Origin: a virus
Virus record (IMG/VR): IMGVR_UViG_3300027754_000140
Location: 1 to 49,797 of that record
Direction: 5' to 3' (one strand)
Length of the DNA: 49,797 bases
Shown: piece by piece, positions 27,133-45,015 of the stretch
How positions within the stretch are numbered: the stretch's first letter is position 1
How the letters are laid out: every line of letters starts with the position of its first letter
Position numbers and translations under genes: made by a program
Notes under the pieces: generated by a model
Told to the model about the DNA's origin: nothing
Databases searched by the model: none
The model's input: only the letters and a program-made list of their open reading frames with translations

Positions 27133-27148
27133 AGCAAGAATCATGCCA
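27133..27148 (-). promoter_or_regulatory. sigma-54 promoter upstream of replication operon
   Basis: Minus-strand TGGCATGATTCTTGCT matches the -24/-12 consensus (TGGCAYR-N4-TTGCW) with GG and GC at the obligatory 10-base spacing. The same 16 bases recur at 38330 and 45000. The predicted start is near 27122. It drives 26872 to 19307 leftwards and lies immediately after the activator gene. Confidence 0.85.
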
Positions 27149-27167
27149 ACTTCTGGATTTATATAGT

Positions 27168-27189
27168 GTTATATCAACTCAAGTATAAC
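27168..27189 (-). promoter_or_regulatory. candidate activator binding site (palindrome)
   Basis: A 22-base inverted repeat with arms GTTATA and TATAAC (10 bases between). On the minus strand the TATAAC half starts 25 bases upstream of the -24 element. Related sequences occur before two other sigma-54 elements (33823-33842, 38282-38301). It overlaps the 3' end of the activator gene. Confidence 0.5.
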
Positions 27190-28069
27190 TCAACCTACCT
27201 AACACAGCCCATCGCTTAATGTATTGCTGAATAGAACGGACATTCAACGACACGTTGACATCATACCTAGTCTTGCCAGACTCTTCTAACGCAGCCCACC
27301 ACTCCTTGCCACCCTTGATTGATGCAGCGATGAGTGGGATGTCATTGACCCTGTCTTCGAGGGGCTTGATGTGTAGCTCGAAGGTAGAGATACGAGCGAA
27401 CAAGTCTTGACGGAACTCTCCATCCTCTACCATCTTACGGATGTCACGATGAGTAGCGCATACAAACTTGCAACGAATCTCCTCCTCTACATTGCTGCCT
27501 ACCTTACGGATGACCCTGTCTTGTAGAGCACGAAGTAGCTTGGCTTGCACACTAATGGGAAGTTCACCGATTTCATCTAAGAATAACACACCATCTTTTG
27601 CGGCTGCTAACAGTCCTTGCTTCTGACTGTCAGCACCTGTGAATGAACCACGTGCATGACCGAACAACTCTGACTCCATCAATGCCTCTGGTAAACCAGC
27701 ACAGTTGATTGCAATGAACGGAGCATTGCGGTCACCGATCATAGACCTAGCAATGATCTCCTTGCCTGTGCCTGTCTGACCTGTGATGAGTACCTCGTCG
27801 TCACACTTGGCTAGCTTCTTAATCTCTTCCTTCATTGCTAGACAATCCTCATCCTCGGTGATGAACTTCTTGAGCCACAACTCTGTGCCCTCGAGTGCAT
27901 CCATGAGCATACCATTCTCTACCTTGAACTTCAGATCATGGTGTTGGATTAACTGTACGACTACATCACCAAGTCCATTGGCTAGTAACTCTCGTAACTT
28001 GTCCTCTGAAGGAGGAGCGGGTTTCTCTTGTTTGGGTTTGGGTGCTAGTGTTCCTAAGGGTATTGCCAT
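27179..28069 (-). CDS. phage sigma-54 activator, AAA+ bacterial enhancer-binding-type protein (296 aa)
   Basis: Start chosen at ATG 28069 (a GTG 12 bases earlier is possible). Residues 1-80 are a Pro/Lys-rich linker and a helical region. The AAA+ sigma-54 interaction domain follows: Walker A GQTGTGKE (97-104), ESELFGHAR then GSFTGA (141-146, a variant of the GAFTGA loop that contacts sigma-54), Walker B VLFLDEIGE (161-169), sensor I-like CATHRD (204-209), FRQDLFARIS with arginine finger candidates Arg220/Arg227, and a sensor II-like NVRS (Arg278). It ends there: the Fis-type HTH that usually follows is missing. It should remodel host RpoN-RNA polymerase using ATP. It is the last gene of the middle operon, just upstream of a sigma-54 promoter. 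PspF-like or anti-defence functions are less likely. Confidence 0.85.
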   Translation of the reverse strand: MAIPLGTLAPKPKQEKPAPPSEDKLRELLANGLGDVVVQLIQHHDLKFKVENGMLMDALEGTELWLKKFITEDEDCLAMKEEIKKLAKCDDEVLITGQTGTGKEIIARSMIGDRNAPFIAINCAGLPEALMESELFGHARGSFTGADSQKQGLLAAAKDGVLFLDEIGELPISVQAKLLRALQDRVIRKVGSNVEEEIRCKFVCATHRDIRKMVEDGEFRQDLFARISTFELHIKPLEDRVNDIPLIAASIKGGKEWWAALEESGKTRYDVNVSLNVRSIQQYIKRWAVLGRLSYT

Positions 28070-28071
28070 AA

Positions 28072-28479
28072 TTATTTCCACACGTACGGAAGGTCAGGTG
28101 ATTCCGACCAACCAAATTTACTATACCATGCTGGTTCTTTTCTGAGAAGGTTAGAACGATGACTAGCATGGATGTCATCACGTCCTAACCACGGCGGCAT
28201 ATCATCACGGATAGATTTGAAAGATACAATCTGTTCGAGACAAGTATCCTTGAACCCACGTGACTTCCATTCTAAGCATATCTCTACACCATACTGGATG
28301 AGTGCGCCACCATAACCTTGCCACATCTTTGTGCAAGGGTGATGCTTCCAACCATATGAGGGATATGCTAGTGACTTAAGTATCTGAAAGGTTTCTACGC
28401 GCTGCTTACCTAGGCGTCTGTTGTCTAATGCTTTGGCTGACTCTTGGAAGTCAGGATAGGGTAGAAAGGTTTGCATCAT
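28072..28479 (-). CDS. MSMEG_6728/pyrimidine-dimer glycosylase-like protein
   Basis: Starting at the ATG at 28479 (overlapping the previous stop) the protein begins MQTFLPYPDF after one Met, then SAKALDNRRLGKQRVETFQIL and HPCTKMWQGYGGALIQYG. I recognise this as the MSMEG_6728 family, related to T4 endonuclease V-type pyrimidine dimer DNA glycosylases (Pfam Pyr_excise). Expected role is UV damage repair, or another DNA base function. It lies with ligase and helicase genes and two bases upstream of the sigma-54 activator. Confidence 0.7.
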   Translation of the reverse strand: MMQTFLPYPDFQESAKALDNRRLGKQRVETFQILKSLAYPSYGWKHHPCTKMWQGYGGALIQYGVEICLEWKSRGFKDTCLEQIVSFKSIRDDMPPWLGRDDIHASHRSNLLRKEPAWYSKFGWSESPDLPYVWK

Positions 28480-28790
28480 TGCTTGAAGATACGTTTGTTC
28501 CACTCACGCCACAGCGACGCAGCTTTCTTGCCTGTGTAGATGAGTGAATGGTTAGCTGACAACTGCATATACAAACGAGGTGTCCACACGTCCTCAATCT
28601 CTAGGTCTTTGGCGTGTTGCTTGACAGTCTTGTCAACACCAAATGCTTTGGCAGTTGGCACATGGACTACGTTGAACACAGAGAACTTAGGCTTGAGCCT
28701 ACGGAAATCTCCGTGCTGATTCATGTATCCGAACTTGGCAAATTGTACCTTGCTCAAGTCAACTACCACATGGTTGTTATGTAGTTTCAT
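28476..28790 (-). CDS. unknown 104-aa protein
   Basis: Basic protein with an N-terminal beta part (NHVVVDLSKVQFAKFGYM), a middle segment and a Trp-rich C-terminus (SLWREWNKRIFKQ). It is between the 65-aa gene (ATG-TGA overlap) and the glycosylase-like gene. The basic, aromatic character would suit nucleic-acid binding, but no family is recognised. Confidence 0.6.
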   Translation of the reverse strand: MKLHNNHVVVDLSKVQFAKFGYMNQHGDFRRLKPKFSVFNVVHVPTAKAFGVDKTVKQHAKDLEIEDVWTPRLYMQLSANHSLIYTGKKAASLWREWNKRIFKQ

Positions 28791-28984
28791 AGGAGTGGGA
28801 GTTGTTCGTCACGATGTTCTAGTTGTGACTCGTTGAAGATGTGCAACATCCCGAGTCCATTACTTGTGGTGAGTTCTGCTACCACACGAACATCACCATT
28901 GATTGTAGTGAATACGGAGCGGACTTCACTATCAAACGAGTAGCCCTTTGGCTTGATTACTTTGTCTCCAGTTTTGAATTTCAT
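28787..28984 (-). CDS. unknown 65-aa protein, SH3/KOW-like start
   Basis: Begins MKFKTGDKVIKPKGYSFD, a start typical of small beta-barrel (SH3/KOW-like) proteins, followed by alternating beta strands and an acidic end. I take the ATG at 28984, directly after the previous stop; an in-frame ATG at 28993 would overlap it. Function not known. Confidence 0.55.
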   Translation of the reverse strand: MKFKTGDKVIKPKGYSFDSEVRSVFTTINGDVRVVAELTTSNGLGMLHIFNESQLEHRDEQLPLL

Positions 28985-28985
28985 A

Positions 28986-29180
28986 TTAGTCATCCCATTC
29001 TACGTCGTTAGGTTGTATTTCATACTCACCCTCACCCTTACATTCATCGCAAGGTTCGGGGTCTTCTATGCTGCTGTCTGAGTCTATGCCTGTACCATCA
29101 CACCAGTCACACAACTTAAACTTACGCTTGTCTTCCGGTGGTGTCAAGTACTGATCATGCGCTCTTGCTTCTGAGTTCAT
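28986..29180 (-). CDS. DnaJ-type zinc-finger protein (64 aa)
   Basis: Contains CDWCDGTG and CDECKGEG, two CxxCxGxG motifs as in the cysteine-rich zinc centre of DnaJ, separated by an acidic loop of about 15 residues. One zinc ion is expected. There is no J domain, so it is a stand-alone zinc finger, common as a small phage protein of unknown role. ATGA overlap with the ligase gene. Confidence 0.7.
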   Translation of the reverse strand: MNSEARAHDQYLTPPEDKRKFKLCDWCDGTGIDSDSSIEDPEPCDECKGEGEYEIQPNDVEWDD

Positions 29181-30112
29181 TGTCCGTCCTCCCTGAACCC
29201 CACAAAGATAGGACTTCTCGGCAAGTCCTTCTCTCCGTGTGGTTTATATTTTATGGTTATCTGCTTGCCGAGAAATTGTTTGGCGTTCATCCAGATATGT
29301 TTGCGTAACTTATCTGTTAACCCTACCCCTGTGCCCACGTTGAAGTGTCTGTTCTTGTTGTCGACTACAACGAATGCACCGAGAGTATCCTTCGGGAACA
29401 TATTAACTTGGTGTGACGAACGATCCATCATACCAACTGTGTTCCTGTCTTCCGAGTTACCATTCTCCATCTGTTCCATGAACCCTACGATGGTGACTTC
29501 AGAGCGTAGGTTACGACAGAGTTTGATGAGGTACTGTTCCTTTAGTGTAGACCTACCTTGTTTGTATGGACTGTCTACTGTACGGAAACAGATGCCCTCT
29601 TGTCCTTCGTTCTCTGAATGGGTGAAGCAAGTGAACAAGTTATCTGCGTTCAGAGCTAAGATTGCAGGTTTCATTAGTACATCTGTCATCTCATCTCCGT
29701 AGTCAACGAACCAATCATCTAACAGAGTTTGCCTGTCATAATAACCCACATCTAGGATCCAATCCAATACATGGAACTCTATTAAGTCAGAGTCAGGATG
29801 TTCGGCGGACATTACTATGGACTGGACTTCATCATACGACAACGAAGGATTCCACAACTCCATGTCAAACCCTGATGGCATGACAAGTGAACGCTCACGA
29901 ATCGAATGGTTAGGGATAGGCTTGAGTGTACGTGATAGCAACGAGTCTACACCATTGTGCTTGAGTCGTAGCGCACGGATACCATCCTTCTTGATGGACA
30001 CAAGTACAGGATACTTGAGCTTCTGCATTGCTGCATAGATAGACTCATCTGTATGTGGGTCTGACGGACTGAGCAGCGCAGCCGCTAACATCGGACGTTT
30101 AAATGTTGTCAT
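29177..30112 (-). CDS. ATP-dependent DNA ligase (311 aa)
   Basis: The adenylation motif is KKDGIRAL at about residues 41-48 with Lys42 as the likely nucleotidyl lysine. Motif III FDMELW (98-103), motif IV EGICFRT (near 180) and motif V LIKLC (near 200) follow, then an OB-like C-terminal domain of about 100 residues. Length is normal for a compact phage ligase. It seals nicks in replication and repair. It overlaps the helicase and zinc-finger genes by four bases each. Confidence 0.85.
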   Translation of the reverse strand: MTTFKRPMLAAALLSPSDPHTDESIYAAMQKLKYPVLVSIKKDGIRALRLKHNGVDSLLSRTLKPIPNHSIRERSLVMPSGFDMELWNPSLSYDEVQSIVMSAEHPDSDLIEFHVLDWILDVGYYDRQTLLDDWFVDYGDEMTDVLMKPAILALNADNLFTCFTHSENEGQEGICFRTVDSPYKQGRSTLKEQYLIKLCRNLRSEVTIVGFMEQMENGNSEDRNTVGMMDRSSHQVNMFPKDTLGAFVVVDNKNRHFNVGTGVGLTDKLRKHIWMNAKQFLGKQITIKYKPHGEKDLPRSPIFVGFREDGQ

Positions 30113-32196
30113 TCTTCCTCCTCATCTCCGTTGAGAGCATCGTAATCGGTGCTCGTTGTTTCTAATGTTGATTCGTCTACTAGATGCTTCTCCGCAGGTA
30201 CACCACCTACCACTACGTCTGCCCACTTCTCTCTTGTACGTACAACCTTCGAGAGACAGCGTAACTTCTGACTGACGATACGTGCTACGCTGTCCTCGAT
30301 TGTGTTACGATAGAACACCATGACTTGTGGACTATCTGACAGAGATGTCAAGCGGGGTGTACGTCCTAACCCTTGGACTAATTCTATCGCGCTGTAAGTA
30401 GGAGCGACAAAGTTAATACGCTGACGCACAGGAATGCTATGAATATCATCGACCACAGCATAACCATTCTTATGTTTTCTGACCTTGACTTTAGAGAGTT
30501 CGTCCGTATGATGGAGAGATAGTCCAACACCACCTGCGCGAAAAGTGTACAGACAATACAAGCTACGACCAGATTGAAACTTATCAATTTCACGTTGCCT
30601 TTCTTCCTTTGATTGTGAACCAAGTTTGAGATGTTCGGGCAGGTCTTCTAACTCTCTGTCCTCGACTTCATCTAGGTCTAAGTCTTCTAGCAAATCATCT
30701 ACCTCAAGACCTACTTGCTTGAGTTGTTCTACCTTATCCTTGATAGACTTCTTTGCTTTCTGTTTCTTGGTGAGTTGGGTTTGACCACCACCCCAGACTA
30801 GACTAATCTGCTCACGCGGTACCTTGAACTCATCGACAAGTATCTTCACGATGCCTATGATAGTACCCTTAAAGTTAATGGCGGCAACTGCTGCTTGGTT
30901 GTTCTCAGTCACAGCTTTGTACATCTGCTCTGCTAGATACCTACGACGACAGTACTCTGCTGCCATACGGAACTTGAGGAACTGTACAAGCATAGCCATA
31001 CCTCCACCTCCACCTCCACCCTCATCTAATGCTTCTAGCTTAGCTTTCTCTTTGAGGTAACGCTCATACGCAGACTCGTAGTACATACGTTCTTCGGATG
31101 TCTGGAATGAGATCATCTTGATGGTGTTGACAGCATCGAACTGAGGACGCACACCTTTGACTCGTACGATATACTTATCCAAGTCCTTGACTAGACGTTC
31201 TACTGCTGCCTCGTTGTGTTCTTCTGGGTCACCTTGTGCAATGGCAGATGCATACGTAGGCCATGTGTTGAGGGTTAACTTGCCTGGGATACCTAGCTGT
31301 TGACGTATATCCTTACGAGTAGACACAGCGAAACACTTCGCCTCGCACACACGAGTGAATGGAGTTGCAGAGATGAACACTTGCACTACGTCTAAATCAT
31401 TGAGTGCTGACGCGATGTTGTGTTGTGTAGACCCTTCGTTCTTGAGAGCTTGACACTCATCCCACAAGATGACTACTGGGTTGAGCATCTTACGCCATTT
31501 CCATATGGTTTGTTCCTCACCATTGACTATGACTTGTTCGTCATTTACCCACGCGGCACCAGCACGTGACCTAAGCTGTTCGATGTTGAGGATTTCAACC
31601 CCATCTTTAATTCCCAAGTCGAATAGGTTCTGGAATACGCGTTTGGTTTGCTCGACGATAGTCGCTCGCGTGACGTATAAGTAATTGACAGTCCCAAAGG
31701 TTTTACCCTCGTGATAGCCACAGTCGACCAATCTCCTAACGAGAGCAGCTGCCATGAACGTCTTACCAGTTCCAGTTCCAGCGAGGAGTAGTTGTCCACG
31801 ATGTCCTGCTTGGATGCCATCCCACAGTTCTTTGACAGCTTTCTTTTGGAACCAGAACAGGAATGCTTTTTCTTTTGGTGAGGAGTGTAGTCCATAGTCA
31901 TTTGTGTTGTTGAATCCTGACTCATCTGCTGTGTCAGGAGGGATTGTTGGTTGTTCTAAATCTGTGGGAGGGATGATGAAAGCAGGAGGATTATCAAAGT
32001 CTGCCAACATCTTGTCGGTGAAGCCTTTGATTTCTATGAATGATATCTCACCTGTCTTGTCTGTTGGGATGTATCCGTTAACATCTTCCCACTTCTTAAT
32101 CTTACCGAATGAGAAGGCTGACTTGATAGAATTGCAGAGTCGCTGCAAGTTATCACGTTGCTTCTTCTTGAGGAGTTGTTCTGGGGTTAGTTTCAT
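30109..32196 (-). CDS. superfamily 2 DNA helicase (695 aa)
   Basis: After an N-terminal 120 residues come motif I AGTGTGKT, motif II WDECQ, motif III SATPF and, near the C-terminus, the motif VI-like VQGLGRTPR. A Gly-rich loop (GGGGGGGMA) and an acidic coiled segment separate the two RecA lobes. This fits an SF2 translocase of the DEAD/SNF2-like group such as phage replication or recombination helicases. It is transcribed with ligase. Confidence 0.75.
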   Translation of the reverse strand: MKLTPEQLLKKKQRDNLQRLCNSIKSAFSFGKIKKWEDVNGYIPTDKTGEISFIEIKGFTDKMLADFDNPPAFIIPPTDLEQPTIPPDTADESGFNNTNDYGLHSSPKEKAFLFWFQKKAVKELWDGIQAGHRGQLLLAGTGTGKTFMAAALVRRLVDCGYHEGKTFGTVNYLYVTRATIVEQTKRVFQNLFDLGIKDGVEILNIEQLRSRAGAAWVNDEQVIVNGEEQTIWKWRKMLNPVVILWDECQALKNEGSTQHNIASALNDLDVVQVFISATPFTRVCEAKCFAVSTRKDIRQQLGIPGKLTLNTWPTYASAIAQGDPEEHNEAAVERLVKDLDKYIVRVKGVRPQFDAVNTIKMISFQTSEERMYYESAYERYLKEKAKLEALDEGGGGGGGMAMLVQFLKFRMAAEYCRRRYLAEQMYKAVTENNQAAVAAINFKGTIIGIVKILVDEFKVPREQISLVWGGGQTQLTKKQKAKKSIKDKVEQLKQVGLEVDDLLEDLDLDEVEDRELEDLPEHLKLGSQSKEERQREIDKFQSGRSLYCLYTFRAGGVGLSLHHTDELSKVKVRKHKNGYAVVDDIHSIPVRQRINFVAPTYSAIELVQGLGRTPRLTSLSDSPQVMVFYRNTIEDSVARIVSQKLRCLSKVVRTREKWADVVVGGVPAEKHLVDESTLETTSTDYDALNGDEEEE

Positions 32197-32387
32197 AATG
32201 CGTGTGTGGCATGAGTAGTCTTGTGTACAGACTTACCACCTGGGTTAGATACTAAGTGATGTTGTGAACGGCGCATACCTTCATTAGCATTGGCTACAGC
32301 CCTGCGTCTGTGCAGTTCTTCGATAGCGTGTGCTGAGTAGAAGTATATTTTCTTGCCGTCAACGATGCGGATTTCTGGGGTTATCAT
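32193..32387 (-). CDS. unknown 64-aa basic protein
   Basis: Begins MITPEIRIVDGKKIYFYSAHAIEELHRRRAV: a beta hairpin followed by a basic helix, then a His-rich tail ending THATHAL. ATGA overlaps link it to both neighbours. Nucleic-acid contact is plausible but unproven. Confidence 0.55.
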   Translation of the reverse strand: MITPEIRIVDGKKIYFYSAHAIEELHRRRAVANANEGMRRSQHHLVSNPGGKSVHKTTHATHAL

Positions 32388-32824
32388 AGGTCATTTTCTG
32401 ATTGTGCTAACTTGGTTGCTCCGATTAGTTCCCATCTAGCTTTGTCACCACGATTCATCCAGCGATTAGCTAGAAGGGATGCTTGTGTTTCTGTTATTAA
32501 AGCATAACGAAGGATTGCCCTTGCGATGATGCTTATGTTCTTCTCACGAATCCAACGCTCAACTCTCTCACGTTCTGACCTTGCTTTAGCACGCTGTTCT
32601 TTCTCAGAACTAATGCGCCATTCATGGATACGCCACAAGCGAGGATGCTTAACGTCTAGGTTGTCGAGTGATGGAAATTGTACGTAACAGATGTCATCGT
32701 TTCTGGTGAGGAGTACGATTAGTTCTGCTAGTTGTTGGTCTATCTCTACGTGTTCGTCATGACGTAACGCCAATGCTACGAACTTAGATAACGGGATTGT
32801 TATTAAGGTTTTTGGAGGGGTCAT
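32384..32824 (-). CDS. unknown 146-aa protein, start of middle operon
   Basis: Helical, charged protein with an Arg/Glu-rich centre (SEKEQRAKARSERERVERWIREK) likely to be a long helix or coiled coil, and a hydrophobic Ala-rich helix after it. It is the first firm gene of the operon that continues with helicase, ligase and the sigma-54 activator. Its ATG overlaps the stop of the doubtful 61-aa ORF upstream. No family recognised. Confidence 0.6.
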   Translation of the reverse strand: MTPPKTLITIPLSKFVALALRHDEHVEIDQQLAELIVLLTRNDDICYVQFPSLDNLDVKHPRLWRIHEWRISSEKEQRAKARSERERVERWIREKNISIIARAILRYALITETQASLLANRWMNRGDKARWELIGATKLAQSENDL

Positions 32825-33006
32825 ATGGAAGAAGTAGTCAGCTTGACTTCGTCCGTTATGGATTCCATACCACCATCCGGTGGTATGTATTTAGTAAACC
32901 ATTCGGCTTTCCATGTCAAGCTGACTAAAGTAAATAGCCTACACCAATACTTGCAACTATCGTAGTCATAACCCGCCCCGTAAGTTAGGCTATGGCATGG
33001 GAGCAT
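32821..33006 (-). CDS. doubtful 61-aa ORF in structured region
   Basis: The ORF ends in an ATGA overlap with the next gene, which favours translation. Against it, most of its 3' half is formed by the large inverted repeats at 32835-32927, and a TTGACA element lies inside it. The end (WKAEWFTKYIPPDGG) reads like protein; the start does not resemble anything. It may be a short leader peptide or chance. Confidence 0.3.
   Translation of the reverse strand: MLPCHSLTYGAGYDYDSCKYWCRLFTLVSLTWKAEWFTKYIPPDGGMESITDEVKLTTSSI
32835..32927. repeat. nested inverted repeats, possible structured RNA or operator
   Basis: Outer arms of 13 bp (TAGTCAGCTTGAC at 32835-32847 and its reverse complement at 32915-32927) enclose an inner 9-bp hairpin (CATACCACC/GGTGGTATG, 32866-32874 and 32879-32887, ATCC loop). 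On the minus strand an arm contains TTGACA, with a weak TACTAA 17 bases later, so a promoter under operator control is one reading. It precedes the middle operon. Confidence 0.55.
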
Positions 33007-33154
33007 TACCCATGATCCATTATTTACTACGCTTCTGCTTCATCGGACTTGCATACACGACTTACTTCATGCAGTTAGCGTAGTCCGGCTAAAGGTGTAG
33101 GCTAAGAGGGACTCACAACTTGACGCTGTGAGTCCTTGCTTAACCCACTACCAA
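33007..33154. terminator. hairpin at 33109-33135 ending the 161-aa gene; rest empty
   Basis: A 9-bp perfect stem (GGACTCACA/TGTGAGTCC, 9-base loop) lies about 20 bases beyond the stop of the leftward 161-aa gene. The U-tract is weak (CTCTTAG), so termination may be partial or the stem may protect the RNA 3' end. Bases 33007-33106 show nothing I can name; I checked for a tRNA and found no fitting cloverleaf. Confidence 0.5.
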
Positions 33155-33640
33155 TTACACCGCAACAGCAGGCTCGCTGTCGACTTCTTCTTTCGGCTTA
33201 CGCTGACGATCTTCCTTCATCTGGCGATAAGCACGAATCTGGTCGTTCAGTTCGCGAACCTTACCCTGCACGCTGCTGTCAGTCAAGTCAGCGCCGTCAA
33301 TGAGCTTGGTGAGTTCAGCCTGCAACTCATCCAACTTATCCGCAATCTCCTTCAGCTTCAGACCAGAAGACGCGAACTCAGCCGCATACTTCACGAACAA
33401 CGGGAGGTTGAACACTCCATCTTCGCCAACAGCTTGGTCGTAGATGTTCTGGAACTTACGCTTGAGGAGAGTCTGGAGTTCGTTGACCAGATTGGAAGTA
33501 CCAATCCACTCACAAACTTCAGCGAGGTTCTCAGGCGTCACGACAGGAGCGGGATACTCCGTGTTGGCACGCTTGCCTTTGAGGATTTTGAAGTTACCGA
33601 ATTCAAGGGCGGTGTTATTACGTTCGACTGTTATGTTCAT
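33155..33640 (-). CDS. unknown 161-aa protein with its own sigma-54 promoter
   Basis: Acidic/helical protein: a beta start (MNITVERNNTALEFGNFKIL), a helical centre, then a long coiled-coil-like segment (LKEIADKLDELQAELTKLID and VRELNDQIRAYRQMKEDRQRKPKEE) and a short hydrophobic end. It stands alone between a sigma-54-type element (33778-33793) and a hairpin, so it is a single-gene transcript, probably made in quantity at the late stage. Scaffold-like, DNA-organising or regulatory roles are possible; no family recognised. Confidence 0.7.
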   Translation of the reverse strand: MNITVERNNTALEFGNFKILKGKRANTEYPAPVVTPENLAEVCEWIGTSNLVNELQTLLKRKFQNIYDQAVGEDGVFNLPLFVKYAAEFASSGLKLKEIADKLDELQAELTKLIDGADLTDSSVQGKVRELNDQIRAYRQMKEDRQRKPKEEVDSEPAVAV

Positions 33641-33777
33641 ACTGTTTACTATGTTGTTTTCTTCAGTTACTGTTTGGTTTCAAGCAGCGATAAGAACTGA
33701 AACTCATCGCTCACTTGTTATTCCTACGCGCGTATTGCTTTAGGAAATTGTACTCGCCGCGTAAGTAATCCCTATAT

Positions 33778-33793
33778 AGCATTTTTCATGCCA
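33778..33793 (-). promoter_or_regulatory. sigma-54-type promoter of the 161-aa gene
   Basis: Minus-strand TGGCATGAAAAATGCT keeps GG and GC at the exact 10-base spacing and differs from the other three elements in the N4 spacer and the first base of the -12 block. The flanks are also shared (GTTGGCATG before, GCTATATAG after, as at 27133-27148). Predicted start near 33767. Confidence 0.75.
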
Positions 33794-33822
33794 ACTTTTA
33801 GGGATGTCTAGATTATGGTACA

Positions 33823-33842
33823 GTTATACTCTACTGATATAA
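33823..33842 (-). promoter_or_regulatory. candidate activator binding site
   Basis: On the minus strand TTATATCA, six bases, TATAAC. The TATAAC half starts 35 bases upstream of the -24 element. The same 8+6+6 layout occurs at 38282-38301 with TGATATAA in place of TTATATCA. Confidence 0.5.
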
Positions 33843-33847
33843 TCTAA

Positions 33848-34093
33848 TTATTTAGTTAGGTTAGGCCACATTGTCTCTGCTATTGTGTTAGAGATGTGAC
33901 GCCATTTTAAAGGCTCTGTTTTATGGTAATAAGTTTCAATCCAACCATTGCTGAGATCTCTGTTATGTCCATAACAAGGAGGTGTTGAGTCATTGGACGT
34001 AGCATTGATTGCCCATTTCCCGTCGACACAACGCATTAACAACACGTTGTTGACAATGGGGTATTCACGTTTTACGTAGTAGTCTGGTTTCAT
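33848..34093 (-). CDS. unknown 81-aa protein
   Basis: Small protein with beta-rich start (YYVKREYPIVNNVLLMRCVDGKWAINA) and two Trp near the end. Last gene of the leftward early chain; its start is three bases after the stop of the 33-aa ORF. Unrecognised. Confidence 0.55.
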   Translation of the reverse strand: MKPDYYVKREYPIVNNVLLMRCVDGKWAINATSNDSTPPCYGHNRDLSNGWIETYYHKTEPLKWRHISNTIAETMWPNLTK

Positions 34094-34096
34094 AGG

Positions 34097-34198
34097 TTAG
34101 TTCATTAGGAAGTAGCAATGTACTTGCATCTTATTTGCTGATACCATGTAGATGGTGCCGTTCGATCCGTATACTGTTATAAAATATATTAGTGTCAT
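34097..34198 (-). CDS. tiny 33-aa ORF in early chain
   Basis: Starts at an ATGA overlap with the 58-aa gene and stops three bases before the next ATG. The sequence (MTLIYFITVYGSNGTIYMVS...) is hydrophobic and beta-like. The junctions at both ends argue for translation although it is very short. Confidence 0.4.
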   Translation of the reverse strand: MTLIYFITVYGSNGTIYMVSANKMQVHCYFLMN

Positions 34199-34371
34199 AG
34201 TGATAGTTGATGTTTGAGGGATTTAATATCTTGTAAGATACGGAAGAAATTGCCTCTGAAGTTACACCAAATTTGTCCTTTGTCATCTTGAGATAGAACA
34301 ATTTGCTGTCCTGCTTTTAGGTCAATGAGTGTCAATGGTAACTTATCATCTCTTATAATAGATATTTTCAT
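34195..34371 (-). CDS. unknown 58-aa early protein
   Basis: MKISIIRDDKLPLTLIDLKAG opens a beta-rich protein with the segment GQIWCNFRGNFFRILQ and a basic tail. Its ATG overlaps the previous stop (34368-34371) and its stop overlaps the next ATG. Small, unrecognised early protein, possibly one that acts on the host. Confidence 0.55.
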   Translation of the reverse strand: MKISIIRDDKLPLTLIDLKAGQQIVLSQDDKGQIWCNFRGNFFRILQDIKSLKHQLSL

Positions 34372-34703: not shown

Positions 34704-34709
34704 AAATTA

Positions 34710-35900: not shown

Positions 35901-35903
35901 AAG

Positions 35904-36137: not shown

Positions 36138-36155
36138 CAAATGCCTAGTATTGCG

Positions 36156-36329: not shown

Positions 36330-36332
36330 ATA

Positions 36333-37389: not shown

Positions 37390-37430
37390 GGTTGGATGGG
37401 TTGGAGCTTCTAGCTTCAACAACCCATCCA
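37381..37430 (-). terminator. terminator of the 37.4-38.0 kb unit
   Basis: A 10-bp perfect stem (GGATGGGTTG/CAACCCATCC at 37395-37404 and 37421-37430) with an inner AGCT pairing, followed on the minus strand by CCTTTTAATTT. It lies 11 bases beyond the 128-aa gene stop. Confidence 0.75.
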
Positions 37431-37440
37431 CCTACTCTAC

Positions 37441-37827
37441 TTATGCTGTGACTGTAGCATCTTTCTTGCGATAGTTCTGGTTGAACCAGCCTTCCACCGC
37501 AGCGGGGAAGTTGCATTGAATTTCAAACCGATGTTCCACAGGTTTGACAACGCTGCCCGCTTCTTCCAGTTCACGGATACGGAGAGAGAATTGAACCAGC
37601 GCAGTCAGCGCAGAGTTCAGCGGCAGTTGCAACGAGTTACCAGTTTTGGAGGTAATCTTGCCCTTCGTGCCAGCCTTCCACTCTCCTTCCACAGTCTGAA
37701 TGGCAGACGCATACTGTCCGAGAAACGAAGTGACATCTGCCACAAGTTTCGGGAAGTGCGCTCCCGCTTCATCCTTGAACGGATTGAGGATTGATGCTGT
37801 CCAGTCGGCATTGAATGATTTAGCCAT
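37441..37827 (-). CDS. unknown 128-aa protein, separate leftward unit
   Basis: ATG 37827 overlaps the 49-aa gene by eight bases. The protein has a helical start (SFNADWTASILNPF), a Gln/Lys middle, a central helix with Leu/Arg (LVQFSLRIRELEEAG) and a beta end (EHRFEIQCNFPAAVEGWFN). A strong terminator follows. No family recognised; placed beside the terminase but on the opposite strand, it may be an early or regulatory protein. Confidence 0.6.
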   Translation of the reverse strand: MAKSFNADWTASILNPFKDEAGAHFPKLVADVTSFLGQYASAIQTVEGEWKAGTKGKITSKTGNSLQLPLNSALTALVQFSLRIRELEEAGSVVKPVEHRFEIQCNFPAAVEGWFNQNYRKKDATVTA

Positions 37828-37969
37828 ATGTTTTCTTATCACGCAAGTCGCATCCTAGCGCACGCCTCAAAAGCGAAAGTGCTTTTGCCATCGGCGATAG
37901 ACTGTTTTCCTGCGTAAATTCTGGACAGTCATAAGTTAGAGTTGTGCCATCCGAGGCCTTGCAAGTCAT
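37820..37969 (-). CDS. unknown 49-aa protein
   Basis: From ATG 37969 (MTCKASDGTTLTYDCPEFTQEN...RRALGCDLRDKKTYG), acidic then basic; a longer reading from a GTG at 38044 adds a hydrophobic N-terminus that may not be coding. Overlap with the next ATG (8 bases) supports translation. Two Cys near the start and one near the end. Function unknown. Confidence 0.5.
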   Translation of the reverse strand: MTCKASDGTTLTYDCPEFTQENSLSPMAKALSLLRRALGCDLRDKKTYG

Positions 37970-38044
37970 ACTCACGCTTGGCGTGACTATAGTTAGCAAC
38001 GCAGACTCAACTACTGCAAAGTAAAGAACGAAGGGCGCGGTCAC

Positions 38045-38329
38045 TCTGGCACCACCCTGCCCCGCGCTATGCGGGACACACTCTAGGACGAGTCATTACC
38101 AGAGGTAATCTATAAGTTAGGTGCATAAGCAATGCTAATGATGTAGGGGCACTAGGACAATCCATTACCAGAACTCATAGCACCACAGTTGGCGTGGGGC
38201 TGGGGGCCCCCCCGGAACAAGCTGTGCTGCGGAACATTATTACCATCTCACAAAATGAAAAATCCAAAAAACCCCATACCTTGATATAAACCCAGTATAA
38301 CCCACCTTCCGGACATAGAGTATAACCAG
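38045..38329. other. intergenic region upstream of terminase: repeats, GC palindrome
   Basis: Bases 38083-38103 and 38152-38172 are near-identical 21-mers (CTAGGAC...CATTACCAGA, 18 of 21 equal) 69 bases apart. A CCCGC/GCGGG hairpin sits at 38061-38075 and a perfect GGGGGCCCCC palindrome at 38202-38211 within a GC-rich stretch. The place, just before terS, is usual for a cos or pac site; that is inference. No ORF here convinces me. Confidence 0.4.
38282..38301 (+). promoter_or_regulatory. candidate activator binding site
   Basis: TGATATAA, six bases, TATAAC; the TATAAC starts 34 bases before the -24 element at 38330. A second TATAAC is at 38321-38326, directly next to the promoter. Confidence 0.5.
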
Positions 38330-38345
38330 TGGCATGATTCTTGCT
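38330..38345 (+). promoter_or_regulatory. sigma-54 promoter of the packaging/head operon
   Basis: TGGCATGATTCTTGCT, identical to the elements at 27133 (minus) and 45000, with GG and GC 10 bases apart. The predicted start is near 38356, giving an 83-base leader before terS. Confidence 0.85.
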
Positions 38346-38438
38346 ATTATGTACGGTATATGCAAGAAACATCGCATGATAGGTTTGCAAAGTCTGGGTT
38401 TGGGTTGTCGTTGAACGGGACACAAGTATTTGTGATTT

Positions 38439-38843
38439 ATGTCTTCCGCAGCGGAACAGCTTAAGATCCTGTATGAACAGGAAGGGATGACTCCCGACGA
38501 GATAGCTAGCGACCAGGAAATGGATATCGCTGCTGTCAAGGCGTGTCTCATGTCTTGTTCTGGTAAATATAGGCGCGCTTGTGGTTCTGAGGAACCCGAG
38601 GAAGATCACCTCAACTTTACTAATGATCAACTCGAAGCGGTTAACCGTGTTATCTATGAGATAGCTATCGGAGCGGAAGATGACTCTGTGCGCCTCAAAG
38701 CCGCCACGTATTTACGAGATGACAAGAAGGGAAGGAAAGAGGTCGTCAAAGCGGTAGGTGGTACTCAGTTTAACATCCTTATGTTTAATGAGCAGATGCA
38801 GAAGATTCGTCAGTTAAAAGATGCGGCGGTACATGCGATATGA
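38439..38843 (+). CDS. terS-like: terminase small subunit-like protein (134 aa)
   Basis: Helical protein beginning SSAAEQLKILYEQEGMTPDEIASDQEMDIAAVKACL, which reads as a helix-turn-helix DNA-recognition region, followed by a longer helical part ending FNEQMQKIRQLKDAAVHA. It is immediately upstream of terL (four-base overlap) and downstream of the sigma-54 promoter, the standard place for the packaging-site-binding small subunit. Assigned by position and HTH outline. Confidence 0.65.
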   Translation: MSSAAEQLKILYEQEGMTPDEIASDQEMDIAAVKACLMSCSGKYRRACGSEEPEEDHLNFTNDQLEAVNRVIYEIAIGAEDDSVRLKAATYLRDDKKGRKEVVKAVGGTQFNILMFNEQMQKIRQLKDAAVHAI

Positions 38844-40555
38844 CACCAGAAGAGTTAGCCAAATTATCTCCAGAAGACTTAGAAGCTGCCGTGAACAACG
38901 GACAGATACAGCCTTCTGTAAAGATAACTGGTACTCCGTCTGAGGTGTTTGATGGGTTTGACATTAAGGATCCTGTAGAGTTGCTGTTCCTTCTTGACGA
39001 CAACATATCATCCGGTAAGATCAAACTACATCCGTGGCAGATACAGTTCATGACTGACTTTGCTTCGTCAGACCGCGACTCCGATACACCCTTCCAAGCC
39101 ATAGTTCGTGCGTGTAACGGATCGGGTAAAGATAAGTACATAATTGCACCATGTGTGGTGTGGTTGTGTATGCGTTACAAACGTGCGCGTGGAGTGGTTA
39201 CTTCATCGTCAGGTGACCAGCTTGATAACCAAACAGGTGCATACATTGATCAACTATGCGAAGCGGCTAATCGTAAGTTTGAAGCTATGTTTGGACAACC
39301 GGTGTGGAAACTAAACTATCGTTATTATGAATGTCTCGTCACAGAATCGCCCATCAAGTTGTTTGCTACCGATGAACCAACCAAAGCAGAAGGTTACCAT
39401 CCTCTCGACCCTAAAGCAAAGATGGGTATGTTTGTTTCGGAAGATAAATCCGTTCCGGACGAAATCAACATTGCCCTCAATCGCTGTACTGGATACACCC
39501 ACCGTGTTCACGTCTCAACACCCGGACCACCGATGGGGCACTTTTACAACTACTGCCAGACCTCAGTTAAGAGGGAAGATCTTGAACGAGTAGAAGAATG
39601 TCCTCCTACTGAGTTCCTCCAGTATCACATCACAGCGTTCAAGTGTTCTCATCTGTCAAAGAACTATATCGAACAGATGAAACGTGACCTTCCTGGCGGT
39701 GAAGCTGGGGCGGCTTTTCAGTCTATTGTAATGGCAGAGTTTGGTACTAGTAGTGAAGACCTTATCGTCATACCATACACCTACATCTGGAAAGCGGTCA
39801 ACCAATGTAAGTTAGGACATATCGCTGATAACCACAATACTGGCGGATTAGACTTGTCTGCTGGTGGTGACGAAACAGTATTTGCTATACGTAATGGTAA
39901 CAAACTAATTAAAGTAATCCCGTTCCGCTTTGACAACACACAAGATACTATCAGGTTCCTTGAAGAACAATTTCGCAAATTTAATTTCCAATCCATTGGC
40001 GCCAAGATATTCGCAGATGCTGGTGGTCTTGGTAAACCTATTATTGACCAACTACGTGAGCGTGGATGGCAGAACATTCGTTATGTGCTTAACCAATCTA
40101 AAGCTTACGATGAACGCGTATACATCAATCGTGGTGCGGAGATGTGGTTCAACTTTGGTAAACTGTTACAGACTAGTGAGGTCTGGCTTGGCGTGGATGA
40201 CAAGAAGCTATTAGAGCAGCTATCGACTCGTTACTACAAGATAACTGTTAACAACAAACACCAACTTGAGTCTAAGCTTCAAGCCCGCTCTAAAGGTCAC
40301 CCTTCGCCTGACCGTGCTGATGCTGTAGTTCTATGTTTCTCAAACTACAAATCTAAGCTAGAAGCTGGGGCGGAACCTGAGAAACCGTTCACAATACCCG
40401 AACCAGAAGTACCTAAGTCCATATTCAACGAACGTGAATATGCAGAACGTGAGACCATAGACAGGTATACTCCGTTCTCCAAAGGTAAAGATTTCCGTGT
40501 GATTAATGCCCTTATCACTCGGCACAACACTAACATCAAGGGTTCTTCCGTATAA
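38840..40555 (+). CDS. terL: terminase large subunit (571 aa)
   Basis: The ATPase has a Walker A of the terminase type RACNGSGKDK at residues 90-99, and HPWQIQFM upstream as an adenine-binding segment. The nuclease half starts GGLDLSAGGDETVF, has FADAGGLGKP in the middle and ends HPSPDRADAVVL with acidic residues for two metals. Length fits the family. It translocates DNA into the prohead and cuts it. Confidence 0.85.
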   Translation: MTPEELAKLSPEDLEAAVNNGQIQPSVKITGTPSEVFDGFDIKDPVELLFLLDDNISSGKIKLHPWQIQFMTDFASSDRDSDTPFQAIVRACNGSGKDKYIIAPCVVWLCMRYKRARGVVTSSSGDQLDNQTGAYIDQLCEAANRKFEAMFGQPVWKLNYRYYECLVTESPIKLFATDEPTKAEGYHPLDPKAKMGMFVSEDKSVPDEINIALNRCTGYTHRVHVSTPGPPMGHFYNYCQTSVKREDLERVEECPPTEFLQYHITAFKCSHLSKNYIEQMKRDLPGGEAGAAFQSIVMAEFGTSSEDLIVIPYTYIWKAVNQCKLGHIADNHNTGGLDLSAGGDETVFAIRNGNKLIKVIPFRFDNTQDTIRFLEEQFRKFNFQSIGAKIFADAGGLGKPIIDQLRERGWQNIRYVLNQSKAYDERVYINRGAEMWFNFGKLLQTSEVWLGVDDKKLLEQLSTRYYKITVNNKHQLESKLQARSKGHPSPDRADAVVLCFSNYKSKLEAGAEPEKPFTIPEPEVPKSIFNEREYAERETIDRYTPFSKGKDFRVINALITRHNTNIKGSSV

Positions 40556-40558
40556 CAT

Positions 40559-40825
40559 ATGAATCGCTACATCTGCCGTAAGTGTAAGTCAATCTCAATC
40601 CTTAACCTCAAAGCTGATGATATTGATATCTTCTGTACTGAGTGTTCACCTGAATCCAAAGTCCGCCACAGCAAGACTATCATCTCTGTGCCAATGACTA
40701 ATGCTATGGTACGTGAAATCGTTCCTGCTCTCCAGCCTAAGTTTGTTGGTATTCCCGAGGCTCCTAAACCTAACGTTGAAATCAAACCGACCAAAGGTAA
40801 CTTGATCATCCCTGCTACTAAATAA
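40559..40825 (+). CDS. zinc-ribbon protein (88 aa)
   Basis: The first 30 residues hold CRKC and CTEC pairs separated by 18 residues (MNRYICRKCKSISILN...IFCTECS), a zinc ribbon. The rest is Pro/Lys-rich. It lies between terL and head genes; possibly a small packaging or head accessory factor. Not recognised further. Confidence 0.6.
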   Translation: MNRYICRKCKSISILNLKADDIDIFCTECSPESKVRHSKTIISVPMTNAMVREIVPALQPKFVGIPEAPKPNVEIKPTKGNLIIPATK

Positions 40826-40829
40826 TATT

Positions 40830-41171
40830 ATGGCTTACAAACAAATCAAACCGGACGATACGGAAGAAGAGGATATGCCGGCTCCTGCTGACATGGCTCC
40901 TATTGAGGCTCCTGCTGAGGCTCCTGAAGAAGGATCTGACGAAGAAGAGATGACTGAGACTCCTGAGGTTGAAGCTGAAGAAGAACCTAGTAACGTAAAG
41001 ATTAGTGAAGTCTTTCAGAAAGAAGTCAGCTCCATGATCATGGGCGCCACTAAACCTGAGATTGAATTCATTCGTTCTGAACTTGCGGAACGTGAGAAAT
41101 CTCTAAACAAATCACAATCTGAAGCTGGCATGGCTGCTGATATGTTCTCTACTGAAGGACTACCTGAATGA
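40830..41171 (+). CDS. acidic head-region protein (113 aa)
   Basis: About 40% of residues 10-70 are Glu/Asp with Pro/Ala (PIEAPAEAPEEGSDEEEMTE), then a helical C-terminus. Likely disordered in the first half. It overlaps the next gene by four bases. Role unknown; acidic low-complexity proteins near portal genes can be chaperones. Confidence 0.55.
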   Translation: MAYKQIKPDDTEEEDMPAPADMAPIEAPAEAPEEGSDEEEMTETPEVEAEEEPSNVKISEVFQKEVSSMIMGATKPEIEFIRSELAEREKSLNKSQSEAGMAADMFSTEGLPE

Positions 41172-41707
41172 AAGAATATCACAGAACTATAGTATGTTTG
41201 GTAGCGTATAACGGTTCGTTACAGCTTGCTCATTGGTGTGCTGACACGAAGTCTAATGAACATCGTACCCTCGGTAAGTTGTACGAGATAATGCTTGAAC
41301 TTGTTGATGACTATGCAGAAGTGTGCATGGGCAAGCATGGTTTAATCAGCAAAGATGCTATCGGTACAGATTGCTGCCTTACTGTGTTGACCAATCCTCC
41401 GGAAGAAGGGTTAGAGTTAGTGGTCAAGTTGCGTGGTAGTTTGACTGCTGGTGAGGATGATGATTTGCTAAACATCTTGGCGGATATGTCTGCTGCTCTC
41501 AATAGAGCTAAGTACCTCCTCAAGTCTAAGTCAGCGGGTGCTACGCTTATGGTCAAGTTATCTAACGAAGAACCGTATGAGAACGAGTCTGACGAAGCTG
41601 CTGAGACCGAAGAAGAACAGGCTATCGAGAAGGAAGAAGGTATCGAGCAACATCCTCCTGTAACCAAAAAGAAAAAGAAATCCTTCGATATAGAAGGGAT
41701 GGAATAA
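41168..41707 (+). CDS. unknown head-region protein (179 aa)
   Basis: Folded alpha/beta part of about 120 residues (YHRTIVCLVAYNGSLQLAHWCAD; LYEIMLELVDDYAEVC; DCCLTVLTNPP) followed by an acidic tail (EAAETEEEQAIEKEEGIEQ) and a lysine cluster KKKKK. Starts at an ATGA overlap. Unrecognised. Confidence 0.55.
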   Translation: MKEYHRTIVCLVAYNGSLQLAHWCADTKSNEHRTLGKLYEIMLELVDDYAEVCMGKHGLISKDAIGTDCCLTVLTNPPEEGLELVVKLRGSLTAGEDDDLLNILADMSAALNRAKYLLKSKSAGATLMVKLSNEEPYENESDEAAETEEEQAIEKEEGIEQHPPVTKKKKKSFDIEGME

Positions 41708-41716
41708 GGAACTAAT

Positions 41717-43546
41717 ATGTTAGACAAAGATACGTCATACATCAATAGTACGGACTACACTAAGCTTAAGGATAAGCTTAGGGACTTAGTGTCCATCATG
41801 GATGAACTAACGTCTAAGTTAGTTGCTTCGCGTCGCCTACGTTACACGGAGATTGACGTTGAGGGCGAGAGGAAAGCTGGTCGTTTGCAACCGGATGAGA
41901 TGTACATTGCTCAGCACATCATCGACACAAACATCCGTCGTGAACAATCAGCGTATGTTCAATACGTTACGCAGCCTCAACGTGCTGTTGTGTTGCGTGA
42001 CATCATGTCTCCTGCCAATGATGTTGCCCTTATCGAACAAGATGTCACCCAAAAGGTACGTTTTGACGGTTGGCAACTCTCTCTTTATGCTTGTATCGAC
42101 GGGATGCAGCAGAACGGGTATGGTGTAATGGAGGTAGTTCAAGACCAGAATCAGCCTGGAGAAGTGGCACATGAGTGTGTGCAACAGGGTGATTTTGGGT
42201 TTATTGCTGATACTCGTGACCTCCAAGAGGCGGAAATGATTGCTCGTCAGTACTTCTTCCCTAAGACTAAGTTAGTAGCGTTGGCGAGTGATCCGGAGAG
42301 TGGCTGGTCTATGGTTGAGGTCAACAAGGTCATTGGTTCTGAGTCATCTGCTACTGATACCGCCGATGGTTCTGTAGTTGATGCAAAGGATAAGTCATTG
42401 TATCGTATCTACAAAGTCATGTTTCGCGTTAATGGAGTTGTTAACGTAGCATGGGCGCGTAAAGATAGATGTGATGATTGGTTGCGTGCTCCTCGTCCGT
42501 TGTTCTTGGGTAGGAGAAGTGCTCCTGTGCCACAGCAACAGCCAATGATGCAACAGCAGCAAGCTCCTCAGTTGCCACAGACACAGGAGTCATACGAGAC
42601 TGCGTATCCTTACGTCATTTACCCGTACCTCATCTCTGAGAATGATACTATCTCTCAGCTTAAAGGTCGTGTATATCTTGACCAAGATACTCAGGAAGCT
42701 GTCTCTTCGTTGTTGTCATCATTCTGTACAGGACATCGTCGTGCTTCTGGGTTGTACTTCTCGAAGGACATCTCGGATCCTAATGATGACTTGATGATGC
42801 AGAAGAATGTGTTCTTCCAGCCTGGTGCTTTGATCAATTCAAAGGTTACACAGTTCCAGTTGACTCCTCCCAATGCTGAGATGGTTTCTGCGATTAACCT
42901 GTTGGTTTCTGGTAACCAAAACGAAACGTCACAAGTCAACTTTGCTACACAGAACCGCAAAGACTCACGTAAGACCGCTACTGAAGTAAGTGCCGCATCA
43001 CAATCTGCTGCTTCGTTAAGCACAGTTCAAGTGGTACTATTCTCGGCGGCGTTGAGGACAATGTATAGTATGATGTACGACATCATTGCATCACGTGTGG
43101 TAGCTGGGTTGATTCAAGTTGATCCTGCGGTGGCTCCGATGTATACTCGTAAATATCATCTGAAACCTGCTGGTGACACAGACGTAATTGAACGTCAGCA
43201 GATGGTACAACAGATGATGTCTGCTTGGCCTGTGGTTCAAAACACTCCTGCTAACATAGCGTTCTTGTCTGACCTACTGTCCAAGATGTTTCCTGAACAA
43301 GCTGGCAAGTATATCCAAATCTTCCAGCAAGCTCAGCAACAACAGCAGTCAGCACAAGCACAACAGCAGCAACAGATGAATCAGACGAACCAGCAGCTAG
43401 CTGCTAGTGTTGTAAGTTTGTCAGGACATCCTGAGATGTTCTCAGATACTGGCAAAGTTCATGCACTTCCCGCAGTACAAGCTGCCGCTCAGCAGATTAA
43501 ACAAATGCAGCAACAGCAACAACAGCCTCAGGCTCCACAGCAATGA
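41717..43546 (+). CDS. portal protein (609 aa)
   Basis: Sits between terminase and scaffold/capsid and has portal-like helical segments (LVSIMDELTSKLVASRRLRYTE..., and the region with VALIEQDVTQKVRFDGWQLSLYACIDGMQQ). A Gln-rich loop lies near residue 275 and a Gln-rich tail covers about 530-609, probably disordered. Length and neighbourhood match podovirus portals with long C-termini. An AAGGA sits before its ATG, one of the few clear ribosome binding sites. Confidence 0.7.
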   Translation: MLDKDTSYINSTDYTKLKDKLRDLVSIMDELTSKLVASRRLRYTEIDVEGERKAGRLQPDEMYIAQHIIDTNIRREQSAYVQYVTQPQRAVVLRDIMSPANDVALIEQDVTQKVRFDGWQLSLYACIDGMQQNGYGVMEVVQDQNQPGEVAHECVQQGDFGFIADTRDLQEAEMIARQYFFPKTKLVALASDPESGWSMVEVNKVIGSESSATDTADGSVVDAKDKSLYRIYKVMFRVNGVVNVAWARKDRCDDWLRAPRPLFLGRRSAPVPQQQPMMQQQQAPQLPQTQESYETAYPYVIYPYLISENDTISQLKGRVYLDQDTQEAVSSLLSSFCTGHRRASGLYFSKDISDPNDDLMMQKNVFFQPGALINSKVTQFQLTPPNAEMVSAINLLVSGNQNETSQVNFATQNRKDSRKTATEVSAASQSAASLSTVQVVLFSAALRTMYSMMYDIIASRVVAGLIQVDPAVAPMYTRKYHLKPAGDTDVIERQQMVQQMMSAWPVVQNTPANIAFLSDLLSKMFPEQAGKYIQIFQQAQQQQQSAQAQQQQQMNQTNQQLAASVVSLSGHPEMFSDTGKVHALPAVQAAAQQIKQMQQQQQQPQAPQQ

Positions 43547-43809
43547 CACCACAAGAGAAACAACAAGAAGCAAAGACCATTCTCGAACAACAACATCGAG
43601 AATGGTCTCATCATCCAATTACAGCTGCGTTAGTTCGCACGTTGGATAATCACATAAATGACTTTCTGGTAGGACAATTAACTTCACGTCTATCTAACGA
43701 TGAACTAAGGTTCGTTGCCGCCCAGATTAAACAGACTAAACTTATTAAAGATTTCGTGACAAACACGGATATGTTCGTAAATAAACAACTAAAAGAAACC
43801 AGTAAATGA
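43543..43809 (+). CDS. unknown 88-aa protein between portal and scaffold
   Basis: Helical protein with Gln-rich start (TPQEKQQEAKTILEQQHREWSHH) overlapping the portal stop by four bases and the next ATG by four. Possibly a helper of assembly; unrecognised. Confidence 0.55.
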   Translation: MTPQEKQQEAKTILEQQHREWSHHPITAALVRTLDNHINDFLVGQLTSRLSNDELRFVAAQIKQTKLIKDFVTNTDMFVNKQLKETSK

Positions 43810-44999
43810 GAATACTACTTAACCAACATCTGTCAGGAGGAGGCGGCAATCGTGCAACTCCAGCACCAACTAGGGTACAAATCAAAGAAGCTCCAGCAGA
43901 AGTACTGAAACAAGACTTTAATGGAGATATTGATACCGAAGGCTTTCCTCGTGACGCAGCTGAAGCTGTGGAAGCGTACAAGCCAGAGCAACTCCCCGAG
44001 AAGATTGAGGGCAGCACTAGCACTAGCGCAACCGAGAAGACCGGGGCGGCTCCGACTTCCACTAAAAGCGAACTTACGCCCACGGACGCACCGAGAACTG
44101 AAGATAGACCTACTGCACCCGCGAAAGAGGCTGTCGTGAAGCCGAAGGCGAACGCAGCCACTGAGGTAGAAGCGGTGTCCGCAGAACCGAAGGGTAGGGA
44201 TTACACCGGATTCTCCGCAGAAGAGCAAGCTGTCTTGAAGAAGATGTCTAACAACTCTTTCCAGTTTGCTACTAAACTGATGCAGGAGAATAAGGAACTC
44301 AAGAACAGAAGTGAAGGACAGTATTACCAACATCAGCAGGGATATACTCTTGACCCAGCTTATCAGCAAGTCCAGACTGATGGATGGTATGCCGACCAAG
44401 AATCCAAGTATTGGGAATCACAGCTCTACGCGATGCAAGAGGGTAATGAATGGACTCCGTTGGTTGGTTATAATGAAGACGGAACGTTCAAGCTTGGTGA
44501 CAAACGTCAGCCTACTCCTCGTGATATTGAACAGGTTCGTCGTGCTATGAATGACTGTTTGTCTGCTAAACAACGTTTCGCTGGTCAGGCACAGACTTAT
44601 GTGCAACAGCACTCACAACGTATTCAACAGGATACACAAGTCATCAACCAAGAACAGGCTAAACGCTTTGCTTGGGTTGCTGATCCTAAACAACTAGAAA
44701 GTACTATTGACGTACCTGGGGTTGGAGAGAAGAGTATTGGTGCTCTTAAACAAGAGTTTCAGAACTTATTCCCTACGTATCATCGTGGTCATGTTGCTGT
44801 TGATGTAGCGTCTAATTTGTTTGCTGCATTGCAGATTTACGGAGCACGTATTCGTGAGCTAGAAGCTAGCAATAAAGTCTCTGAGATTAAAAGAGAAGAA
44901 GTAATGCGCGGAGAACCTAAGTCTGATACTAAACCTCAATCAAAAGGTAAGACAGTACATGGTATCAATTCATTCGATATGGATGACTTTGGTACTTGA
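43806..44999 (+). CDS. scaffold-like protein (397 aa)
   Basis: A Gly-rich start, an acidic Pro/Thr-rich first 140 residues, then a Gln-rich helical part (QFATKLMQENKELKNRSEGQYYQ; QAQTYVQQHSQRIQQDTQVINQEQ) and a basic Lys/Gln tail. These features and the place directly before the capsid gene fit a capsid scaffold. The stop is directly followed by the sigma-54 promoter of the capsid gene. No protease motif seen. Confidence 0.6.
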   Translation: MRILLNQHLSGGGGNRATPAPTRVQIKEAPAEVLKQDFNGDIDTEGFPRDAAEAVEAYKPEQLPEKIEGSTSTSATEKTGAAPTSTKSELTPTDAPRTEDRPTAPAKEAVVKPKANAATEVEAVSAEPKGRDYTGFSAEEQAVLKKMSNNSFQFATKLMQENKELKNRSEGQYYQHQQGYTLDPAYQQVQTDGWYADQESKYWESQLYAMQEGNEWTPLVGYNEDGTFKLGDKRQPTPRDIEQVRRAMNDCLSAKQRFAGQAQTYVQQHSQRIQQDTQVINQEQAKRFAWVADPKQLESTIDVPGVGEKSIGALKQEFQNLFPTYHRGHVAVDVASNLFAALQIYGARIRELEASNKVSEIKREEVMRGEPKSDTKPQSKGKTVHGINSFDMDDFGT

Positions 45000-45015
45000 T
45001 GGCATGATTCTTGCT
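45000..45015 (+). promoter_or_regulatory. sigma-54 promoter of the capsid gene
   Basis: TGGCATGATTCTTGCT, identical to those at 38330 and 27133 (minus). It begins on the base after the scaffold gene stop. Predicted start near 45026, giving a leader of about 148 bases. I see no TATAAC-type site upstream of this one. Confidence 0.85.

Follow-up and report, generated by a model that had tools for sequence, protein, structure and literature searches.

Predicted sigma-54 promoters and a phage-encoded sigma-54 activator in a lineage of uncultured bacterial viruses

Phages redirect transcription by means of their own RNA polymerases, sigma factors, sigma adaptors, and antiterminators. To our knowledge, the sigma-54 pathway is rarely known among them. 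RNA polymerase carrying sigma-54 cannot start transcription without a specialized ATPase activator, and since its promoters are otherwise silent, the pathway offers a tight, ATP-dependent on-switch. In Pseudomonas phage YuA (Yuavirus, AM749441), three promoters of the region for structure and lysis are annotated as -24/-12 promoters, and these reportedly depend on the rpoN gene of the host. Group 5 of the enhancer-binding proteins, which includes FlgR and CtcC and also FleT, lacks an HTH or DNA-binding domain (PMC7175178), and activators without a DNA-binding domain are able to function from solution (PMC3844500, PMC7175178). DctD250, a protein of this kind, acts from solution on nearly all known or predicted sigma-54 operons of Salmonella (PMC3844500). 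No description of a phage-encoded sigma-54 activator was found in the literature searched, which covers few subscription journals; the parts of the system presented here are already known, and we could not find their combination described.

The DNA analyzed, referred to below as the window, is the whole IMG/VR virus record IMGVR_UViG_3300027754_000140 of an uncultured bacterial virus, 49,797 nt in length. A preliminary description had placed four sigma-54 promoters of constant GG-N10-GC spacing in it, each located in a gap and facing a gene group. A sequence search recovered all four at those positions (Table 1), TGGCATGATTCTTGCT three times (P1, P2, and P3) and TGGCATGAAAAATGCT once (P4). The spacing is the same at each, all four belong to the consensus TGGCAYR-N4-WTGCW, and the ORF lists place every site in a gap and pointing at a gene group; P2 begins immediately behind ORF 43806-44999, on the first base past its stop codon. 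The expected starts in Table 1 follow from the usual geometry of sigma-54 promoters. P1 faces ORF 26246-26872 and then the nuclease, AAA_24, DNA polymerase A, and primase genes, P2 the capsid gene, and P3 the ORF at 38439 followed by the large terminase group. For P4 the earlier description needs correction: the group that it faces starts with the ORF at 33155, continues with helicase and ligase genes, and ends with the activator gene. We consider it probable, at roughly 0.88, that the host sigma-54 (RpoN) RNA polymerase serves the middle and late genes of this phage and that the phage itself provides the obligatory activator. Because sigma-54 polymerase requires the ATPase of an activator, the predicted promoters and the activator would together form a minimal system, and the later genes appear to be started via the host pathway.

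Table 1. Positions of predicted promoters, genes, and candidate elements in the window
Feature	Position	Strand	Basis or remark
P1, predicted sigma-54 promoter TGGCATGATTCTTGCT	27133..27148	-	exact match; expected start ~27122
P2, predicted sigma-54 promoter TGGCATGATTCTTGCT	45000..45015	+	exact match; expected start ~45026
P3, predicted sigma-54 promoter TGGCATGATTCTTGCT	38330..38345	+	exact match; expected start ~38356
P4, predicted sigma-54 promoter TGGCATGAAAAATGCT	33778..33793	-	expected start ~33767
Sigma-54 activator, AAA+ enhancer-binding protein, 300 aa	27179..28081	-	Pfam Sigma54_activat, 6.3e-59
First gene after P1, no function assigned	26246..26872	-	orthologs in 6 relatives
Replication genes: PD-(D/E)XK nuclease, AAA_24 ATPase, DNA polymerase A (two ORFs), primase	19307..26019	-	
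ATP-dependent DNA ligase and DEAD/ResIII helicase, between P4 and activator	29177..32196	-	
First gene after P4, no function assigned	33155..33640	-	orthologs in 5 relatives
Large terminase subunit, group after P3	38840..40555	+	matched by 88 deposited phage records, of which many bear the annotation terminase large subunit
Major capsid protein, first gene after P2	45174..46490	+	model fold match to capsids of Pan3 and N4
Extra TGGCAYRNNNNWTGCW match in ORF	1350..1365	+	same sense as ORF
Extra TGGCAYRNNNNWTGCW match in ORF	6918..6933	+	same sense as ORF
Extra TGGCAYRNNNNWTGCW match in polymerase ORF	20864..20879	-	same sense as ORF
Candidate element before P1, inverted repeat GTTATACT...ATATAAC	27168..27189	-	contains AGTATAAC, + strand 27182-27189
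Candidate AGTATAAC before P4	33823..33830	-	
Candidate AGTATAAC before P3, copy 1	38294..38301	+	
Candidate AGTATAAC before P3, copy 2	38319..38326	+	

The activator gene ends 30 bases upstream of P1. Its product carries the Walker A motif GQTGTGKE, the Walker B motif LFLDE, an FRQDL region, and the L1 loop GSFTGA; the loop reads GAFTGA or a near variant in most relatives, and GAYTGS and GAFTDA in two. The best sequence relatives in the PDB are FleQ and NtrC-type activators, and the predicted structure (mean pLDDT 85) matches the AAA+ domains of FleQ, NtrC1, NtrC4, and PspF. The protein has a short N-terminal region, to which no role is assigned, and ends about 20 residues past the sensor II motif with no C-terminal HTH; the Fis-type HTH (HTH_8, PF02954) was detected in none of the 38 lineage genomes searched. 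By its sequence and predicted fold, it is a member of the sigma-54 activators without a DNA-binding domain. In an arbitrarily rooted tree of nine sampled phage activators and their 80 best bacterial relatives, the phage proteins form one group apart from the bacterial ones (support 100/98, 100% of the bootstrap trees), which fits an old phage-owned gene and not repeated capture from hosts. A search of deposited phages with the activator gave 64 records, all at less than 60% identity, and these were set aside because many are annotated as, or look like, host contigs. To judge from length and from annotations such as atoC and glnG, many of them (Acinetobacter MD-2021a, Salmonella S.Kent, Listeria LM) resemble bacterial contigs filed as phage; MT121960 is one candidate among the matches.

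Relatives of the window were obtained in two ways. The activator search led to eight contigs of 45-56 kb, which were read whole and had their orthologs assigned; their activators are 41-58% identical to that of the window. The capsid protein, used as a query independent of both the activator and the promoter pattern, led to 64 loci with 30-79% identity. This protein has no relative among 50,697 deposited phage records, YuA included, so that the lineage is apparently uncultured, and a DNA-level search of deposited phages returned no close relatives of the window. The activator domain is present in 33 of 43 records, the ten without it being fragments of 14.8-36.7 kb, and in all 27 of the 27 records longer than 42 kb. 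A site of the strict consensus TGGCAYRNNNNWTGCW follows the activator domain within 650 nt on the same strand in 20 of the 26 genomes with listed sites, where about 3% would be expected. These figures bear on the strongest competing explanation, namely that the sigma-54 promoters are real and are fired by host activators, with the phage activator doing something else, for instance redirecting the sigma-54 regulon of the host. YuA, with annotated -24/-12 promoters and no activator domain detected, indicates that a phage can depend on host activators in this manner. Carriage of the activator by every long record, the single clade formed by the phage activators, and the strict site lying directly after the activator gene in most of the listed genomes nevertheless make this explanation improbable for the present lineage, and they favor an activator supplied by the phage for its own promoters.

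All four promoters are found at orthologous places in divergent relatives. Of the 9 genomes, the window included, 8 have P1 after the activator gene (among them 7 of the 8 divergent relatives), as do relatives L004 and L006; P2 ahead of the capsid gene and P3 ahead of the terminase group each recur in 9 of 9, again counting the window; and P4 is present in 6 of the 6 genomes with an ortholog of the gene at 33155. The pattern used in this search fixed only TGGCA and TGC and left the last base as W. At the unforced positions, Y and R each occur in 33/33 sites, exactly as in the sigma-54 consensus, and the last base is T in 33/33, although n=33 overstates the independent sites because some of the sequences are closely related. 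It has to be considered that TGGC-N8-TGC sites bind another phage protein, for instance a repressor or a replication factor, and are no promoters at all. An exact sigma-54 consensus where none was imposed, a fixed spacing, a sense orientation ahead of genes, and a sigma-54 activator encoded in the same genomes all speak for promoters instead and leave very little probability to such a binding site.

The abundance of the sites was assessed in the window and in the capsid loci. Allowing up to three mismatches, a search of the window with the P1 16-mer returns 4 matches against a shuffle mean of 0.51, and 0 of 100 shuffles reach 4. The strict consensus has 7 matches against 0.14 expected, the largest shuffle count being 1. 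Contrary to what the earlier description expected, P1-P4 are not the sole consensus matches; the genome scan places three more within ORFs (Table 1), and for these intragenic sites no conservation was found at orthologous places in relatives. Fifty-five capsid loci, those outside the eight genomes and including several near-copies, were scored. TGGC-N8-TGC is located within 330 bp upstream of the capsid gene on the sense strand in 55 of 55, in its strict form in 44, while the same loci hold none on the opposite strand and none read backwards. In 41 of these loci, spacings of N5, N6, N7, N10, and N11 occur in none and N9 in one. For 43 of the records, summing a table of matches gives about 195 for the strict pattern versus 4 for the backwards control. 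In 25 of 40 further loci, the terminase gene has a strict site no more than 1600 nt away; in the most distant group, none was seen near it. A distant subgroup (L171, L172, L173, L176, L181, L195, L200, L201, L202, and L204) has the capsid promoter TGGCAGA(C/G)TT(T/C)(C/T)TGCT; its flanks are nearly constant, and it carries a G at the position that is Y in all other loci. The idea that the sites are chance matches to a short consensus can draw on a looser consensus, TGGCNNNNNNNTTGCW with one mismatch, which is common in the window and uninformative (32 matches, 21.8 expected), and it is refuted, with a probability close to nil, by the capsid-locus test, the spacing controls, a window count of the strict consensus some 50 times expectation, its similar enrichment over the backwards control in relatives, and conservation at orthologous places. 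The retention of the sites across a very divergent lineage, together with the phage-encoded activator, strongly supports the earlier proposal of a phage-controlled RpoN regulon.

That proposal had also held that the regulon replaces a phage sigma factor or RNA polymerase. Its first half agrees with domain searches of nine genomes, in which no RpoN domain and no sigma-70 region 4 above the cut-off were detected and the controls matched; one sub-threshold match to region 4 occurs in relative G007. For the polymerase half, PF00940 gave 0 matches in the nine genomes, in a search without a positive control, as no control genome matched either. A 2652-aa protein encoded at 10517-18475(+) is conserved, at low identity, in each of the eight relatives and has no known domain; its candidacy as a virion RNA polymerase found no support, since searches of Pfam, PHROGs, and PDB sequences showed no similarity to a polymerase. 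A scan for sigma-70 promoters over 26.8-45.3 kb (35 found, 31.8 expected) was uninformative, bar TTGATA-18-TATAAT at 34505-34476(-).

The leftward stretch at 33.8-38.0 kb is the only one in the window without its own sigma-54 site, and we take it to be the presumed early region. The early regions of relatives G008, G009, and G011 contain extra sigma-54 consensus sites, for example at 12498, 12694, 12748, and 14879 in G008. Where the gene groups diverge, the gap at 38080-38260 contains repeats: CATTACCAGA is found twice and the related ATTACCATC once, and these repeats are perhaps an early-gene operator. The expected leader of P1, 26873-27122(-), is about 250 nt long and of similar length in L004, with the block GGTATACTCTGCAATCTCT retained; Rfam gave no match to it. 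DNA polymerase A is divided into two overlapping ORFs, an exonuclease part and a polymerase part (20653-23284(-)), as in most relatives, and is a single ORF in G006. The capsid model that matches Pan3 and N4 was built from 27 orthologs and has a mean pLDDT of 73. The end of the window (48952-49797) repeats its start (1-846), with 127 identical bases and then 36 mismatches in 846, and the genome is probably circular or permuted, about 48.95 kb in size, and closed over two strain variants.

The window contains four copies of the short sequence AGTATAAC, each of them no more than 50 nt upstream of one of P1, P3, and P4, a placement reached by 0 of 2000 random position quadruples. The inverted GTTATA/TATAAC element at P1, of which AGTATAAC forms part, is retained in L004 with one base changed. 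In the eight relatives, 3 of 34 copies are located upstream of a sigma-54 site, against about 0.4 expected, and these come from two genomes. A lineage-wide role is not supported, the sequence being linked to sigma-54 sites in only 2 of 8 relatives, and a reading as sigma-70 -10 elements was rejected by eye, since the copies vary in orientation and no fitting -35 is present at P3. For some members of the lineage, AGTATAAC is a candidate enhancer or operator, and its placement hints faintly at recruitment of the activator through it.

What the sequences show is the sites, their conservation, the activator with the fold predicted for it, and no phage sigma domain above the cut-off; from these we infer a scheme for transcription, the order of events, feedback, and the mode of recruitment. 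Early genes, at about 33.8-38.0 kb leftward, would presumably be read by the host sigma-70 polymerase, and read-through from them would yield the phage activator (27179-28081). Closed complexes of the host sigma-54 polymerase would meanwhile wait at P1-P4 until a hexamer of the activator touches sigma-54 by its GSFTGA loop and spends ATP, whereupon the complexes would open. P1 would then drive replication, P3 packaging, and P2 the capsid and later structural genes; as P4 lies upstream of the activator gene, the loop would be self-reinforcing. Lacking a C-terminal HTH, the activator would act from solution at high concentration or be recruited to AGTATAAC via its N-terminal region or a partner protein; by analogy with DctD250, it possibly works from solution. 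The broader claim, that an entire family-level lineage of uncultivated phages, each member encoding the activator, has a new late-gene switch in which an HTH-less protein opens the host sigma-54 polymerase from solution and may also fire the host sigma-54 regulon, is put forward with a confidence only slightly better than even. If the scheme is true, the hosts must carry rpoN, promoter maps for dozens of uncultured genomes follow, and host sigma-54 genes could be stirred during infection.

The predicted system resembles several described ones in part. YuA shares the -24/-12 promoters; unlike the window, it has no strict consensus site, with GG-N10-GC in 2 of its 3 annotated regions and none near the strict form, and it has early genes with -35/-10 promoters and is an apparently unrelated siphovirus. 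The modeled capsid fold of the present lineage is nearest to those of the podophages Pan3 and N4. With PspF, FleQ, and NtrC-type proteins, the phage activator shares the sigma-54 activator domain, the GAFTGA-type loop, and the fold, whereas the enhancer-binding HTH of those proteins is missing. In this respect it is like the group 5 activators, AAA+ proteins that also have no C-terminal HTH, but FlgR and CtcC carry response-regulator domains in place of its short N-terminal region. T4 gp55, the phiEco32-type sigma factor, and the T7 and N4 polymerases are likewise phage proteins that redirect transcription to later genes. In contrast to these, the phage studied here would supply an ATPase activator for the sigma-54 of its host, which, if true, constitutes a different route for redirecting transcription.
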